A stretch of DNA of 36,399 nucleotides from Desulfobacteraceae bacterium (lineage in GTDB: Bacteria; Desulfobacterota; Desulfobacteria; Desulfobacterales; JAABTS01). This document shows positions 243-16,261 of the stretch, piece by piece (positions within the stretch are counted from its first letter, which is position 1; each line of letters begins with the position of its first letter). Under the pieces are notes generated by a model. The model was not told where the DNA came from. It did not search any database and saw only the letters and a list, made by a program, of their open reading frames with translations. A program made the translations under genes and the position numbers. Location: NCBI GenBank assembly GCA_011389735.1, contig JAABTS010000044.1, forward strand, positions 1 to 36,399. The letters are read 5' to 3'.

Positions 243-1016
243 ATGACACGAACAATATGTATCGCCAATCAAAAAGGCGGAGTCGGCAAAACGACGACCG
301 CGATTAATTTATCCGCGGCCCTTGCGGATGCGGGCAAACGGATTCTTATGGTGGATTGCGACCCTCAGGCCAACGCCACATCCGGTATCGGCATTGACAA
401 AACAGTCAAGCGAAAGATGCTCTATCACGGCCTGATCGATGAGGCCGACGCCGGGAGCCTGTTAATGGACAGTCAAATCGAAACCCTGAAGGTGATTCCG
501 TCCCATGAGGATTTGACCGGGTTCGAAGTCGAAATGATGTCTCATCCGGATCGGGCCACGGCTCTGAAACGCCTTCTTTCAGGAATCGCCGATCAGTTCG
601 ATTACATTATCCTGGATTGCCCTCCGTCTCTGGGGCTTTTGACCATCAATGCGCTTGCGGCCTCGGATTCCCTGCTGATTCCCCTGCAATGCGAATATTA
701 TGCGCTGGAGGGATTGAGCCAGTTGTCAAAGACCATCAAGCGGGTCACCCGGGGGATTAACCCGAAGCTCAAACTGGCGGGGATTTTATTGACCATGTAC
801 GATCCCAGAACCAATTTGTCCCGGCAGGTAGTCGAAGACGCGCGAAATAAATTCGACCGTCAGGTGTATCAGACCGTCGTGCCGAGAAACGTCCGTCTGG
901 GGGAGGCGCCCAGTTTCGGAAAACCCATTTTATTGTATGATGCATCTTCCGTAGGATCGAAGAGCTATGTGGCCCTGGCCAAAGAAATTCTGGGCAGGAA
1001 CCCGGCGGCCGGTTAG
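243..1016 (+). CDS. parA: ParA/Soj family chromosome-partitioning ATPase
   Basis: This is a 257-aa deviant-Walker ATPase that acts with ParB to segregate the chromosome or plasmid. The N-terminus carries the KGGVGKTT P-loop (residues 11-18, signature Lys11), the DCDPQAN switch region with Asp40, and the Walker B stretch ending in LDCPPS (Asp125). Length and motif order match chromosomal Soj-type ParA proteins without an N-terminal HTH. parB begins 42 bp after its stop, so the two very likely form one operon. No strong Shine-Dalgarno is visible before the ATG. No parS palindrome was recognised in the window. Confidence 0.95.
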   Translation: MTRTICIANQKGGVGKTTTAINLSAALADAGKRILMVDCDPQANATSGIGIDKTVKRKMLYHGLIDEADAGSLLMDSQIETLKVIPSHEDLTGFEVEMMSHPDRATALKRLLSGIADQFDYIILDCPPSLGLLTINALAASDSLLIPLQCEYYALEGLSQLSKTIKRVTRGINPKLKLAGILLTMYDPRTNLSRQVVEDARNKFDRQVYQTVVPRNVRLGEAPSFGKPILLYDASSVGSKSYVALAKEILGRNPAAG

Positions 1017-1058: not shown

Positions 1059-1949
1059 ATGCAAACAGAGAAAACGGATAAAGATACAAGAAGGCCCAAA
1101 AAATCGGCCCTGGGACGGGGACTGGCCGCTCTTCTACCCGACGCCGACGAGATGGATGAAGAGATCAAAGAATATTTCATGTGCGAAGTGGATGCTATCC
1201 GCCCCAATCCGTTTCAGCCAAGGACTCAATTCCCGGAGGCCGAAATGAAAGAGCTTGCCGATTCCATACGTGAGCAAGGTGTCATCCAGCCGCTTCTGGT
1301 CAGGAATACGGATGCGGGATATGAGCTGGTCGCCGGGGAACGGAGGCTAAGAGGCGCCAGAATGGCCGGATTGAATCTGGTTCCCGTAGTGGTTAAAGAG
1401 GTGTCGGAAAAACAGCTCCTCGAAATATCCATCGTGGAAAACATTCAAAGGGCGGACCTGAATCCGATCGAGGAATCGGAATCCTATCACCGGCTTATGA
1501 CGGAATTCAATCTGACTCAGGAAGAAGTGGCCGACCGGGTGGGCAAGAGCCGTTCGGCGGTGGCCAACTTTTTAAGGCTTAAAAACCTTCCGATCCAGAT
1601 CAAGGAAACCATTCTGAACAACACCATCAGCATGGGGCACGCCAGGGCGCTTCTAGGCGCCGACACGCCCGCTCAGATGAGCGAAGCATGGCGCATTGTG
1701 GTGAACAAAGGGCTTACCGTTCGGGAGACCGAAAAATTGATCAAACGGATGAAGGCGGAACGGGAAAAACCGCCGCAGCCCGAACCCGGCCCCGAGGAAA
1801 ACTATTTCACTTCCGTTTCCGAGGAATTGTCCAGGCATTTAGGAACCCGCGTGCAAATCCTGAAATCCGGGAAAAAGGGTAAAATGACGATCGAATTCTA
1901 CGGAAATGAAGATCTCGACCGCTTGCTCACCATTTTGAAACCTGTGTGA
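1059..1949 (+). CDS. parB: ParB/Spo0J family DNA-binding CTPase
   Basis: A 296-aa partition protein. It has the short N-terminal ParA-stimulating segment (KKSALGRGLAALLP, residues 15-28). The ParB/sulfiredoxin nucleotide-binding domain follows, with the GERRLRGA motif near 92-99 and ENIQRADLNPIEE near 124-136. The HTH (LTQEEVADRVGKSRSAVANFLRL) comes next, then a C-terminal dimerisation region. ParB binds parS, loads as a CTP-dependent clamp and is moved by ParA. Its stop overlaps the GTG of the next frame, consistent with one transcript. Confidence 0.95.
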   Translation: MQTEKTDKDTRRPKKSALGRGLAALLPDADEMDEEIKEYFMCEVDAIRPNPFQPRTQFPEAEMKELADSIREQGVIQPLLVRNTDAGYELVAGERRLRGARMAGLNLVPVVVKEVSEKQLLEISIVENIQRADLNPIEESESYHRLMTEFNLTQEEVADRVGKSRSAVANFLRLKNLPIQIKETILNNTISMGHARALLGADTPAQMSEAWRIVVNKGLTVRETEKLIKRMKAEREKPPQPEPGPEENYFTSVSEELSRHLGTRVQILKSGKKGKMTIEFYGNEDLDRLLTILKPV

Positions 1950-1954
1950 CCAAA

Positions 1955-2389
1955 ATGAAAACCATGAAAACGATTTGTGTTATCGATGGACAGGGCGGGG
2001 GCATTGGAAGCGCCGTCATCAAAAAAATCAAAGAGATGTACGAGGAAACCCTGGAGATAATCGCGTTAGGCACCAACGCCATCGCTACGGCTCAGATGCT
2101 AAAATCCCGGGCCAACAAGGGCGCATCCGGAGAAAATGCGATTGTACGCACGGTTCAGCAGGTGGACTGCGTTATCGGGCCGATCAGTATTCTCATGGCG
2201 CATTCCATGATGGGCGAAGTAACGCCTCGCATGGCCGAGGCGATCGCCGTGTGCGACGCTCGAAAATTTCTAATTCCGTTGACTCAGGAAAATATTGAAA
2301 TCGCGGGTCTTTCGGCCGGGCCGCTCCCTCATTTAATCGATGACTTGCTGGAAAACCATCTCAAGCATTTTTTAACTCAGAAACCATAA
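1955..2389 (+). CDS. DUF3842 family protein
   Basis: A 144-aa protein starting with a nucleotide-binding-like glycine-rich strand (ICVIDGQGGGIGSAVIKKI). It continues with a conserved core, GTNAIATAQMLKSRANKGASG and VDCVIGPI. This matches the DUF3842 family, whose biochemical function is unknown to me. A GTG at 1946 overlaps the parB stop and ATGs occur at 1955 and 1964. The family usually begins just before the ICVIDG strand, so the ATG starts are preferred over GTG. It sits between parB and the cooT-like gene on the same strand. Confidence 0.75.
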   Translation: MKTMKTICVIDGQGGGIGSAVIKKIKEMYEETLEIIALGTNAIATAQMLKSRANKGASGENAIVRTVQQVDCVIGPISILMAHSMMGEVTPRMAEAIAVCDARKFLIPLTQENIEIAGLSAGPLPHLIDDLLENHLKHFLTQKP

Positions 2390-2604: not shown

Positions 2605-4323
2605 ATGAAAATATTCATCGCCAGAACCGCCGGTTTTTGTATGGGGGTTCGGCGGGCCGTCGAGATGGGTCTGGACGCGCCCGGAAATCGTGAAAAACCC
2701 ATTTTCACTTACGGTCCGTTGATCCATAACCCTCAAGTGCTGGGGCTTTTAAAAGAAAGAGGCGTCACGGTTCTTGACGAAATTCCGGAAAACGGCCGGG
2801 GAACCGTTTTAATTCGTGCGCACGGCGTTCCGCCGAACGAAAAAAACCGCCTGATCGACGCCGGATTCAACGTCATTGACGCCACATGCCCCCGGGTAAT
2901 CAAGGTTCAGACCATTATTAAAAAACACGCCGCTCAGGGATACCGGATCATTATCATCGGCGACGAAGATCATCCGGAAGTCAAAGGCCTGCTGGGTTAC
3001 GCAGGCGATATCGGCCACGTGGCGGGATCGATGGCGGAGCTGGAGCGATTTGCCGATTTTGAAAAAGCGATCATTGTCGCTCAAACAACTCAGAACACCC
3101 AGTTTTACAATGAAGTGCGAGCCTGGGCCCTGGAACGTGTTCCCCACTATAAAATTTTCGACACCATTTGCGATTCCACGGAAAAACGGCAGCAGGAAGT
3201 CAAGGAACTTGCGGAATCCGTGGACGCCCTGGTTGTCGTAGGCGGCAGGAACAGCGGAAATACGAGAAGACTGGCCGAAATCGGGGCGGAAACCGGGAAG
3301 TCCGTGTATCACGTGGAAACCGAATCCGAATTGGATCTCGACAAGCTTTCGGACGCCAAACGAGTCGGTATTACCGCCGGCGCCTCCACTCCCAACTGGA
3401 TTATCCGGAAAATTTACCGCACCATAGAAACCTTGCCGCTCGAAAAAAAAAACAGCGTAAAACGTGTCCGGTTTATAGTCCAGCGTACTTTGTTGCTGAC
3501 CAATAGTTACGTTTCCATCGGGGCGGGATGCTTGTGTTACGCCTGCTGCAAGCTCCAGGGCATTACCGGATACTGGCCCTTTGTCGCCATAGCCGTCCTC
3601 TACGTTCAATCCATGCACATGCTGAACCATCTGACCGGAACCGACGCCGACCATTACAACGATCCGGATCGGGCCGAGTTTTATAACCGGCATAAATTGT
3701 TTCTTTCGGCTCTGGCTATAGCCTCCGGAGGCGCGGGGCTCATGACCGCCCTGACAATGGGCCTGGAACCCTTTCTATCTTTATTGATCCTGAGCTTACT
3801 GGGGCTTTCCTATAATCTCAACCTGGTTCCCGCTGGATGGAAAGCGTTCAAAGTCAGACGGATAAAGGATATTCCAGGCTCCAAGGCCATCCTCATCGCC
3901 GCGGCCTGGGGAATCGTAACATCGGTTTTTCCCAATTTGTCGGTTTCCGGCCAGATCAATTCAGGAACGCTCATAGTCTTCATCTGGGCCGTATCCCTGG
4001 TGTTCGCCAGAACCGCCTTTTTCGACATTATGGACGTTCAAGGGGACCGGATCGTCGGAAAAAACACCATACCGATTCTGCTAGGAGAAAAAAAAACCCT
4101 TTCCCTGATCAAATGGATGCTGTTCATGATTTTTTTTCTTCTGCCTATCGCCGGCGTCTTGAACCTCACCGCTATGAACGGTTTTTTGATGTCGATTTGC
4201 CCACTGGCCCTCTTTCTGGTTATCACGGCCCACCAGAAAGGGTTGATACAGCCCGGCGTGAGACTCGAATTTTTAGTTGAATCCCAGTTTATCTTGTCGG
4301 GGGCCGCGGCTTTTTTTAGCTGA
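2605..4323 (+). CDS. ispH: IspH (HMBPP reductase) fused to a UbiA-like membrane prenyltransferase domain
   Basis: A 572-aa protein with two halves. Residues 1-280 are a full IspH, the [4Fe-4S] enzyme that makes IPP and DMAPP in the MEP pathway. The three cluster cysteines are Cys12 (FCMGV), Cys95 (ATCPRV) and Cys189 (TICDST). His41, His73, His123 and Glu125 are in the expected motifs. Residues 290-572 are strongly hydrophobic and look like a UbiA-superfamily intramembrane prenyltransferase. An N...D motif lies at 341-349 and the second motif DIMDVQGDRIVGKNTIP at 474-490 carries Asp474, Asp477 and Asp481. IspH is normally about 280-320 aa and soluble, so the fusion is unusual. Its reading frame is continuous with no stop or slip at the joint. 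Confidence 0.9.
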   Translation: MKIFIARTAGFCMGVRRAVEMGLDAPGNREKPIFTYGPLIHNPQVLGLLKERGVTVLDEIPENGRGTVLIRAHGVPPNEKNRLIDAGFNVIDATCPRVIKVQTIIKKHAAQGYRIIIIGDEDHPEVKGLLGYAGDIGHVAGSMAELERFADFEKAIIVAQTTQNTQFYNEVRAWALERVPHYKIFDTICDSTEKRQQEVKELAESVDALVVVGGRNSGNTRRLAEIGAETGKSVYHVETESELDLDKLSDAKRVGITAGASTPNWIIRKIYRTIETLPLEKKNSVKRVRFIVQRTLLLTNSYVSIGAGCLCYACCKLQGITGYWPFVAIAVLYVQSMHMLNHLTGTDADHYNDPDRAEFYNRHKLFLSALAIASGGAGLMTALTMGLEPFLSLLILSLLGLSYNLNLVPAGWKAFKVRRIKDIPGSKAILIAAAWGIVTSVFPNLSVSGQINSGTLIVFIWAVSLVFARTAFFDIMDVQGDRIVGKNTIPILLGEKKTLSLIKWMLFMIFFLLPIAGVLNLTAMNGFLMSICPLALFLVITAHQKGLIQPGVRLEFLVESQFILSGAAAFFS

Positions 4324-5866: not shown

Positions 5867-5936
5867 ATTATGAATGTTGAATTATGAATGTTGAATTATG
5901 AATGTTGAATGTTGAATTATGAATGTTGAATGAGGG
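5867..5936. repeat. GTTGAAT/TTGAATTATGAATG short tandem array
   Basis: About five imperfect 14-bp units (TTGAATTATGAATG) plus single GTTGAAT units fill the space between brxB and the four-helix-bundle gene. The units are the reverse complement of the ATTCAAC heptamer in the arrays at 6346-6444 and 6838-6930, so the blocks can pair with one another. Confidence 0.85.
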
Positions 5937-5941
5937 GTTTT

Positions 5942-6310
5942 ATGATTGGGAAACCGAATATTATTGAAGAGAAAACTTTTGAATTCGCCAAGGGGATTGT
6001 TGGAATTTATAAGTTTTTGATTTATGAAAGGAAAGAATATGTTTTATCCAAACAGTTGTTGAGATCGGGGACTTCTATCGGCGCAAATGTTCAGGAGGCT
6101 CAGGCGGCCCAAACAAAAAAAGATTTTATCGCCAAAATGGCGATCGCCTCAAAAGAAGCCCGTGAAACAAGATACTGGCTGAGACTTCTCATTGAAACCA
6201 ATTTTCTCAACATCGATAATGACGTAATCAAAAATGTTGTGCATGAGGTTGAGCATATCATCAATATCTTGACAAAAATCGTAAAAACCTCACAAGGGAA
6301 TTATGCTTAA
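5942..6310 (+). CDS. Four-helix-bundle protein (23S rRNA intervening-sequence / S23-like family)
   Basis: A 122-aa protein that is helical throughout and matches the family first seen in 23S rRNA intervening sequences (TIGR02436-like). Diagnostic parts are LSKQLLRSGTSIGANVQEAQAAQ and FIAKMAIASKEARETRYWLRLL. The ATG at 5942 starts the conserved MIGKP..EEKTFEFA segment; an earlier in-frame ATG at 5930 adds only four residues. The family's molecular role is unclear, and related Avd proteins bind nucleic acid in retroelements. It is not a core BREX gene: it interrupts brxB-brxC and is flanked on both sides by heptamer arrays, which suggests it arrived as a unit. Confidence 0.85.
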   Translation: MIGKPNIIEEKTFEFAKGIVGIYKFLIYERKEYVLSKQLLRSGTSIGANVQEAQAAQTKKDFIAKMAIASKEARETRYWLRLLIETNFLNIDNDVIKNVVHEVEHIINILTKIVKTSQGNYA

Positions 6311-14800: not shown

Positions 14801-16261
14801 ATGCCGTTTCGAATTGATGAACTGATCACGCTGCCGGAAGGAAAAACGCTTGAATTCAAGCGCGATCTTTCGTCTCCTAAAAATTTTCTAAAAACCATTG
14901 TCGCATTCGCAAACAGCGCGGGCGGCCGTCTGGTTTTCGGGGTCGAGGACGAATCCCGGATTCCCGTGGGCGTGGATAATCCTCTGGATGAAGAGGAACG
15001 GCTTTGCAATATCATCGCCGACGCAATCGAACCCAGACTGGTTCCCAATATTGAAATGGCGACGGTCGATAATAAAACGCTCATTATCGTGGATGTTTTC
15101 GTCAGCGGGTCCCGTCCGCACCGGATCGCCGGCGAAGGCGCGGAGGGCGTTTATGTTCGGCTGGGATCGTCCAACCGCCGGGCGGATCGTGAACTGATCG
15201 GCGAGCTTGAACGCAGCGTCCGGGGGATTACCTTTGATGAAACCCCGCTCCCGGATCTGAAGATCGACGATCTCGATTTGCAGGCGGTGCAGGCGGCGTT
15301 CGCCGGCAAACGCAAAGTTGACGAAAAAGCGATGCTCTCCCTCAAGCTGATAGTTCGTGAACAGGGGCGGCTGGTTCCAACGGCAGGCGGTATGCTGCTG
15401 TTCGGCGGCGAAGAACGCGAAATGCGGTTTCCCGACGCCTGGGTGCAATGCGGGCGGTTTTCAGGCAAGGACAAGTCCGAAATTTTCGATCATACCGAAA
15501 TTTACGGCCACCTGCCTGACGCGGTGGATGCCGCAATCAATTTTTTGAAAAAGCACGCCATGCGGGGCGCGGATCTTTCACAAATCCGGCGGCGGGATGT
15601 TTGGAGCATTCCGCTGAATATTATTCGGGAAGCTGTTATCAATGCCCTGGCGCATGCGGATTATTCTCAAATCGGCGGGCCGGTTCGGATTTCCTTTTTT
15701 GATGACCGTATCGAAATCGAAAATCCCGGTATTTTATTGCCGGGGTTGACTATCGAAGATATCCGCCAGGGCGTTTCCAGATTGCGGAACAGGGTTATTT
15801 CGAGGGTTTTCAGGGAACTGGGCCTTATCGAACAGTGGGGAAGCGGCGTTCCGCGCATTTTTAAGGAAGCGCGGGAACTGGGACTGCCTGAACCGCGGAT
15901 TGAAGAAATCGGCATGAGATACCGCTTCACTGTGTATCCGCCTGAATCGAACGAATTAAATACACAATATAATCAGACGGATAACCTGACAACCGAACAA
16001 GCTACCGAACAAGCTACCGAACAAGCTACCGAACAAGTAACCGAACAAGTCAGCCGTTTGCTTGCATATTTAAAAAGCCGGCGTCTGGGAGTTCGGGAGA
16101 TCATGGACGGTCTGGGATTAAAACACCGTCCTACGTTTATATACAACTATTTACAGCCGGCGCTCGAAAAAGGACTCGTTGAAATGACCCATCCGGATTC
16201 GCCCAATAGCCCGAATCAAGGATACCGGCTGACGGAAAAAGGAAAACGCATGTTGGGATGA
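14801..16261 (+). CDS. AlbA_2 (Schlafen-like) / HATPase_c_4 putative regulator or nucleic-acid-binding ATPase
   Basis: A 486-aa protein. The N-terminus is an AlbA_2 domain (EGKTLEFKRDLS near 12-23, NSAGGRLVFGVED near 38-50). The centre carries a GHKL-type ATPase piece (REAVINALAHADYS near 273-286, later WGSGVPRI). A winged-helix-like C-terminus ends the protein. Five TEQ(A/V) tetrapeptides (about 398-417) link the last two parts; such low-complexity linkers are common in this family. Members are often annotated as transcriptional regulators or RecG-like. It lies between pglX and the TA cluster and may regulate or accompany BREX, but it is not a core component. Confidence 0.8.
   Translation: MPFRIDELITLPEGKTLEFKRDLSSPKNFLKTIVAFANSAGGRLVFGVEDESRIPVGVDNPLDEEERLCNIIADAIEPRLVPNIEMATVDNKTLIIVDVFVSGSRPHRIAGEGAEGVYVRLGSSNRRADRELIGELERSVRGITFDETPLPDLKIDDLDLQAVQAAFAGKRKVDEKAMLSLKLIVREQGRLVPTAGGMLLFGGEEREMRFPDAWVQCGRFSGKDKSEIFDHTEIYGHLPDAVDAAINFLKKHAMRGADLSQIRRRDVWSIPLNIIREAVINALAHADYSQIGGPVRISFFDDRIEIENPGILLPGLTIEDIRQGVSRLRNRVISRVFRELGLIEQWGSGVPRIFKEARELGLPEPRIEEIGMRYRFTVYPPESNELNTQYNQTDNLTTEQATEQATEQATEQVTEQVSRLLAYLKSRRLGVREIMDGLGLKHRPTFIYNYLQPALEKGLVEMTHPDSPNSPNQGYRLTEKGKRMLG
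15992..16051 (+). repeat. Five 12-bp tandem units in the AlbA_2 gene
   Basis: ACCGAACAAGCT occurs three times exactly, followed by two variants ending in GTA and GTC. Each unit encodes Thr-Glu-Gln-Ala/Val, so copy-number change would lengthen or shorten the linker without a frameshift. Confidence 0.9.

Follow-up and report, generated by a model that had tools for sequence, protein, structure and literature searches.

Introduction

The stretch of DNA analysed here (the window; 36,399 nucleotides, contig JAABTS010000044.1, from a Desulfobacteraceae bacterium) raises the question of why IspH (LytB, HMBPP reductase) should be continued in the same reading frame into a membrane domain of the UbiA prenyltransferase type. 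The two lie in a single forward-strand frame of 572 residues without internal stops (window 2605–4323). An earlier note on this DNA described a complete IspH joined without a frameshift to a UbiA-like domain with both aspartate motifs, proposed that the fusion places precursor supply beside a consumer at the membrane and took the domain pair to be one not known to have been described.

The pair has in fact been known since 2015, when fusions of IspH and UbiA in sulfate reducers, primarily Desulfobacterales, were reported from a network of 15,660 IspH sequences (Rao et al., 2015, Chem. Sci.; PMC4746011). The passages of that paper that concern the fusion put forward precursor supply beside a consumer as likely and state that an active full-length fusion protein was not obtained. 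The window protein is of the same kind as these fusions and not a different one. A full-text literature search, with most subscription journals outside its scope, returned no study of the fusion after that of Rao et al.; PMC12605070 mentions it as a citation only, and the phrase 'IspH fused' in PMC11218510 refers to a two-hybrid construct and not to a natural fusion. Added here are the distribution of the fusion across the phylum, a tree of its origin and losses, purifying selection on the membrane half and the incompleteness of the canonical aspartate motifs in nearly all of the relatives examined. The reading that we prefer, with confidence a little short of even, is that the membrane half is a docking and coupling module: it would keep IspH positioned above a UbiA-type cavity and would have ceased to work as an ordinary UbiA enzyme.

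The IspH half and the joint

Residues 1–278 (window 2605–3438, forward strand) form a complete IspH half. The Pfam family LYTB (PF02401) matches residues 3–274 with an E value of 2e-90 and 303 bits (cut-off 24.5), and the NCBIfam model TIGR00216 scores 285 bits on this half (cut-off 187.85). Three cysteines, C12, C95 and C189, which we take from the known family to be the three cluster-binding ligands of IspH, are unchanged in all 42 aligned fusions. In the predicted structure, residues 1–278 match Escherichia coli IspH (PDB code 3f7t) with a Z score of 32.1 (VIA-align). A search of the organism's own genome gave the fused gene as its sole IspH match.

The joint to the membrane half is short (residues ∼279–290, window 3439–3474, forward strand, from an alignment of 139 fusions and the model), and the AlphaFold2 model shows no long loop there. 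Counted from residue 276 to residue 290, the aligned stretch is 14 positions long in 117 of the 139 fusions and 12–15 in 138 of them, a constancy that is weak as evidence, since many other segments of 38 residues in the same alignment are equally or more constant.

The membrane half

The remainder of the frame (residues ∼291–572, window 3475–4320, forward strand) is a UbiA-fold membrane domain with nine predicted transmembrane helices. Pfam UbiA (PF01040) covers residues 325–543 with an E value of 2.7e-13 and 50.2 bits (cut-off 34.2), so that both halves of the protein lie above curated cut-offs. From NCBIfam the second half drew sub-threshold prenyltransferase models alone, with PRK13591 at the top (6.5e-11), and the MqnP model was absent among the 21 NCBIfam matches to the window protein up to an E value of 1. 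In profile comparison the closest protein of solved structure is 6m31, a digeranylgeranylglyceryl phosphate synthase and thus an archaeal lipid enzyme (E value of 9.8e-08), and in a search of a viral library the only convincing matches were viral UbiA-like proteins.

The AlphaFold2 model, built with 42 sequences, has a mean pLDDT of 86.1 and a pTM of 0.76 and places nine membrane-capable helices, one of them just 14 residues long, between residues 301 and 571. Residues 295–572 match Aeropyrum pernix UbiA (4od5_A) with a Z score of 19.1 and an r.m.s.d. of 3.1 over 254 residues (VIA-align), followed by Archaeoglobus fulgidus UbiA (4tq4; Z = 17.6), 8djk_B (Z = 15.4) and 6m31 (Z = 14.4). Matches at Z scores of about 13–15 were not counted as kinship, because they include soluble prenyl synthases (up to 15.2) that share a common helical-bundle fold. 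The domain thus matches UbiA and not a membrane family of another kind, and the fusion of IspH to a UbiA-fold membrane domain described in the earlier note is backed by sequence, family distribution and predicted structure alike.

If the N terminus is assumed to be cytosolic, lysine and arginine account for 17% of residues in the inside loops, or 13.9 of 81.5 per protein, but for just 4% in the outside loops, or 0.9 of 24.0, across 139 rows. This bias fits a predicted topology in which the aspartate-motif loops lie on the cytosolic side, below IspH.

Aspartate motifs and conserved residues

The starting set comprised 163 IspH proteins that begin with GFCxGV and nine that do not. For alignment, the 158 proteins of at least 480 residues and four of the nine gave 162, reduced to 139 non-redundant rows by identity of the last 200 residues. 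Left out were L120, which is broken, L045, with an in-frame TGA in IspH, L099, whose IspH is split over two frames, L171 and L172, which lack the fusion, and the truncated L048, L051 and L073. An order group of 86 rows was taken as the rows below L112 together with L168 and L170; it is sorted by number and not by taxonomy, and the other 53 rows include one row of the same order, L112.

An alignment with HMMER places N341 on N68 of A. fulgidus UbiA (AfUbiA), from which residues 345 and 349 correspond to D72 and D76; D198 and D202 were equated with residues 477 and 481 through their DXXXD spacing, the HMMER alignment being gapped there. The first canonical motif, NDXXDXXXD, reads N341-H-L-T-G345-T-D-A-D349 (window 3625–3651, forward strand) and is degenerate, the first of its two canonical aspartates being a glycine. 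The second motif, D477-V-Q-G-D481 (DXXXD; window 4033–4047, forward strand), is intact, with D481 kept in 137 and D477 in 119 of the 139 fusions. Of the two aspartate motifs announced by the earlier note, the second therefore stands and the first does not.

Residue 345 is glycine in 80 rows of the order group and aspartate in three, leaving 83 of the 86 without an equivalent of D72, and residue 349 is aspartate in 82. The other 53 rows have aspartate at residue 345 in 43 cases and at residue 349 in one. All four canonical aspartates are present in three of the 139 fusions (L019, L061 and L119), and the first motif is complete, with its asparagine and both aspartates, in three of 139. The asparagine and four aspartates are found in 21 of 21 separate MqnP-like UbiA proteins, one being that of the window genome and 20 coming from fusion-bearing genomes, where they were taken from the best-scoring matches and so lean towards canonical motifs and slow divergence. 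In AfUbiA, according to the passages of PMC4106721 on the metal site, Mg2+ is held by N68, D72, D198 and D202, whereas D76 makes no direct contact with it. Of the alanine changes at these four residues and at R22 and K146, four of six abolish GPP binding, D72A among them, while D198A and D202A are mild; the equivalents of the four Mg2+ ligands in E. coli MenA are required for function (PMC4106721).

The principal alternative to a docking and coupling module, a serious one that we nevertheless judge somewhat less probable, is that prenyltransferase activity persists in the UbiA half, on a rebuilt metal site, and that the fusion supplies IPP and DMAPP locally for a membrane product; Rao et al. 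argue in the same direction in the passages noted above (PMC4746011). The fold, the second motif, Asn341 and Tyr403, all conserved in the order group, speak for it. The window protein keeps N341, Y403, D477 and D481, residues of the ordinary mechanism, and a shifted DXXXD pair, D349-x3-D353, is carried by 77 rows of the 86 in the order group and by no row outside it; both facts count against the module, and the shifted pair means that the metal site may have been rebuilt instead of lost. Against an active enzyme stands the absence of the D72 equivalent from the window protein and from nearly the whole order group; the idea of supply beside a consumer is weakened by this loss, given that the residue is kept in every one of the strong-match control UbiA proteins. 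A further point against local supply is that the substrates of UbiA enzymes are long prenyl diphosphates and that IspH itself does not make these. Outside the order group, where the D72 equivalent is mostly kept and the D76 equivalent lost, the fused domains may be active, to judge from their residues, since D76 makes no direct contact with Mg2+ in the part of the AfUbiA study cited (PMC4106721).

Selection and separate UbiA genes

Over 190 pairs drawn from 20 genomes, mean pairwise identity falls from 0.50 in the IspH half and 0.47 in separate UbiA proteins to 0.31 in the fused UbiA domain. In 186 of the 190 pairs the separate UbiA is better conserved than the fused domain, with controls that lean towards canonical, slowly diverging proteins, and this too tells against an active prenyltransferase. 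The ratio dN/dS of the UbiA half is 0.05–0.35 in all 54 close pairs (Nei–Gojobori; the pairs, 53 of which come from the order group, are not independent of one another), from which it follows that the UbiA half is not decaying in those pairs. Such purifying selection would be expected of an active enzyme. Taken together, these sequence comparisons describe a domain that is constrained, but apparently by a different constraint from that on ordinary UbiA.

They also bear on a third explanation, in which the domain merely keeps IspH at the membrane as a passive anchor and any membrane domain would serve. Changed catalytic residues and fast divergence agree with this. Set against it are dN/dS values well below 1 throughout the 54 pairs and the near-fixation of H338 (138 of 139 fusions), W435 (139 of 139), Y403 (137 of 139) and D481, which goes beyond what an anchor needs; R469 (136 of 139) is likewise nearly fixed. 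We regard a passive anchor as improbable.

Two more UbiA genes are present in the organism's own genome; the first is MqnP-like, and the second resembles decaprenyl-phosphate phosphoribosyltransferase. The former, on contig C462, scores 267 bits against MqnP_DT, itself below the cut-off of 430. The fused domain is therefore not needed as a quinone prenyltransferase, and the idea that the fusion is the only such enzyme of this genome was discarded. Among the 114 genomes of the phylum that match the fused domain (see below), 110 have a best UbiA-family match at an E value of 1e-19 or lower (counted by eye; the exceptions are G197, G242, G255 and G269), compared with 8.8e-14 for the fused domain of the window in its own genome; the best match in these 110, its place being known among the top matches listed, is taken as a separate ordinary UbiA. 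As a separate observation, one frame beside the DPPR-synthase-like UbiA gene (L002:2636–3115) encodes a simple tandem repeat (FNIQHPT/S).

Occurrence

Of 40 order-level genomes, including that of the window, 37 match the window protein and 32 do so at full length, the 31 others in the latter set at 47–65% identity. Among the exceptions, G004, G022 and G035 are cut or split by contig ends, and G012 and G037 have IspH alone. In named genome contigs, an alignment of 19 UbiA halves picked up 260 related stretches; the best 80 of the 260 were examined, and most of these carry titles of Desulfobacterales or Desulfobacteraceae. The same architecture extends across the phylum, in which 114 of 297 sampled genomes match the fused domain (19-row alignment, E value of 1e-3) and 278 of the 297 have IspH itself. 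The figure of 114 is not a full count, as very divergent fusions such as those of family f73 escape the 19-row alignment. No free-standing relative of the fused domain was found in the genomes searched.

The frame that contains the best match has at least 567 residues in 105 of the 114 genomes. Among the nine others, the frames of G200, G227 and G271 start no more than six bases from a contig end, that of G151 starts at base 25, the contig of G313 stops 14 bases beyond the match, and G061 has stop codons within the UbiA half (see below). G116 has a frame of 507 residues in which the match covers the first part of the domain only, and the weak matches in G124 and G253 (E values of about 6e-5, frames of 305 and 315 residues) are probably ordinary UbiA proteins.

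An artefact, whether a stop codon lost by sequencing error or a misassembly that joined two genes, might be suspected in a source assembly broken into 477 contigs, but the recurrence of the in-frame fusion in those 32 order-level genomes, in named contigs and throughout the phylum, and its publication in 2015, lead us to reject this.

Origin and losses

A tree of the IspH half was calculated from 110 rows (109 distinct, L174 having been entered twice), of which 72 are labelled fused and 38 unfused, by a quick IQ-TREE run with SH-aLRT support and a midpoint root. Six changes of state are needed on this tree, compared with a mean of 31.7 after shuffling, a clustering that agrees with a single origin. 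With the large unfused side as the root, the tree fits one gain of the fusion and about five losses; the number of losses is soft, as the well-supported branches alone force just three changes and many forks are open. No detached copy was found in domain-losing lineages, either with a 61-row alignment (G012 and G037) or with a 19-row alignment (G054, G133, G231 and G236). Loss of the domain in about five lineages without a detectable free copy is a further point against an active prenyltransferase, and whole-domain loss is also what a passive anchor might undergo.

The three genomes of family f73 that were examined (L208, L209 and L214) carry on IspH a very divergent membrane domain in which the first motif is unrecognisable. 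Comparison of its profile with that of the fused domain gave a probability of 4% and an E value of 0.01. A profile of the nearest relatives of f73 scored best with L208 (16.5 bits), whereas L209 (3.2 bits) and L214 (2.9 bits) lay within the range of ordinary UbiA controls (up to 6.4 bits). From its position and from the IspH tree the f73 domain is likely to be the same domain, although of the three only L208 scores above the controls by profile. That these genomes keep a fused membrane domain with no recognisable first motif leans towards lost catalysis; it is also compatible with an anchor.

Three broken copies were observed. In G061 (L120:4633–5655) the IspH frame is intact and the UbiA half has an in-frame TGA and TAA, possibly a loss of the domain in progress or an assembly error. 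Two fusions from metagenome assemblies are broken within IspH, one by an in-frame TGA (L045:1103–2827) and one by a change of frame (L099:5132–6858); these breaks are likely to be assembly errors.

Genomic context

Directly upstream of the fusion, on the same strand, lies a DUF3842 gene (window 1946–2389; Pfam), a conserved neighbour in the order, preceded by parB (window 1059–1949; Pfam ParB) and parA (window 243–1016; recognized by eye). In a comparison of 135 loci, a DUF3842-like cluster occupies position −1 on the same strand in 40, and a ParA-like gene lies beyond it in the loci of the order. In the order, too, position +1 is taken by a glycerol-3-phosphate acyltransferase gene on the opposite strand, in 24 of the 135 loci. 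In other lineages among the 135 loci, clusters of family-2 glycosyltransferases (16), polyprenyl synthetases (9) and TlyA-like proteins (6) occur, each neighbour cluster being annotated from one member, and a Dxs-like cluster, recognized by eye only, is present in eight. Offsets of neighbours are distorted by shadow frames, because genes were called as longest open frames. The polyprenyl synthetase and TlyA-like genes near the fusion in some deeper lineages would suit an active prenyltransferase; no conserved neighbour that names a substrate or product was found among the 135 loci.

Directly downstream of the fusion, the window carries a BREX-type defence cluster (4682–25782) with BrxA, BrxB, BrxC, PglX, PglZ and BrxL, as annotated by PADLOC, in the place where loci of the order often have the glycerol-3-phosphate acyltransferase gene. 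A gene for a protein of the 23S rRNA intervening-sequence type (PF05635; window 5930–6310) lies between brxB and brxC, and a frame of 486 residues between pglX and pglZ (window 14801–16261) is matched only weakly, by defence models of the Argonaute-associated and SIR2 types.

Proposed role

In the docking and coupling module that we prefer, one gene would yield one membrane-bound protein. Its N-terminal half would act as a normal IspH and produce cytoplasmic IPP and DMAPP. Its C-terminal half would be a UbiA-fold membrane domain, most like the prenyltransferases of archaeal lipid synthesis, with the mouth of the former active site on the cytosolic side, directly below IspH, and a joint of about 14 residues between the two. 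Remaining under selection, this domain would have departed from ordinary UbiA chemistry with the breaking of its first metal-binding motif, and would tether IspH to the membrane while binding an isoprenoid ligand within its old cavity, instead of serving as a second prenyltransferase of the quinone type.

A more specific form of this idea, which by analogy with an animal system we consider conceivable though unlikely, is a UbiA-derived sensor in which the old cavity reads prenyl diphosphates or a prenyl lipid in the membrane and signals across the joint to IspH. Such a sensor would build feedback into the last step of the MEP pathway, and a signature of its own, H338, N341, Y403, W435 and QGD481, would replace the full UbiA metal site. 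If a sensor or gate of this kind were true, bacteria and animals would separately have arrived at a UbiA protein that watches an enzyme feeding isoprenoid synthesis. The data narrow the question to the role that a UbiA half plays on IspH when its metal site is incomplete, for which the lineages that lost the domain or changed its motifs are natural comparisons.

Comparison with known systems

The fusions of Rao et al. have the same two domains in the same order, with a UbiA-like domain that is likewise predicted to have nine helices; in the passages on the fusion, however, two DXXXD repeats are given and prenyltransferase activity is favoured (PMC4746011), whereas here the canonical first motif is rarely complete and the fusion has been traced through the phylum with its losses. 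AfUbiA and ApUbiA, and the archaeal digeranylgeranylglyceryl phosphate synthase, share the nine-helix UbiA fold but are free-standing enzymes, and AfUbiA has D72 where the window protein has Gly345. Another IspH with an additional C-terminal domain in anaerobes is the IspH–RPS1 fusion, in which the partner is ribosomal protein S1 and not a membrane domain; its model, PRK00087, matches the IspH half here with 308 bits, far below the family cut-off of 624.

In a comparison drawn here, the closest working model for a sensor is the animal protein UBIAD1, described in the relevant part of PMC9314443 as a GGpp sensor bound to HMG-CoA reductase. As in the fusion, a UbiA-fold membrane protein is in physical contact with an enzyme that is central to the supply of isoprenoids (8djk); unlike the fusion, UBIAD1 and HMGCR are two separate proteins, the enzyme belongs to another pathway and control is exerted through protein degradation. 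UBIAD1 is moreover an active enzyme, in contrast to our reading of the fused domain, and the match to 8djk_B shows the fold only, its Z score being tied with those of soluble prenyl synthases. The likeness is thus one of analogy and not of kinship, and the IspH–UbiA protein, if it does act as a sensor, would be a covalent and independently evolved counterpart of the UBIAD1–HMGCR pair.
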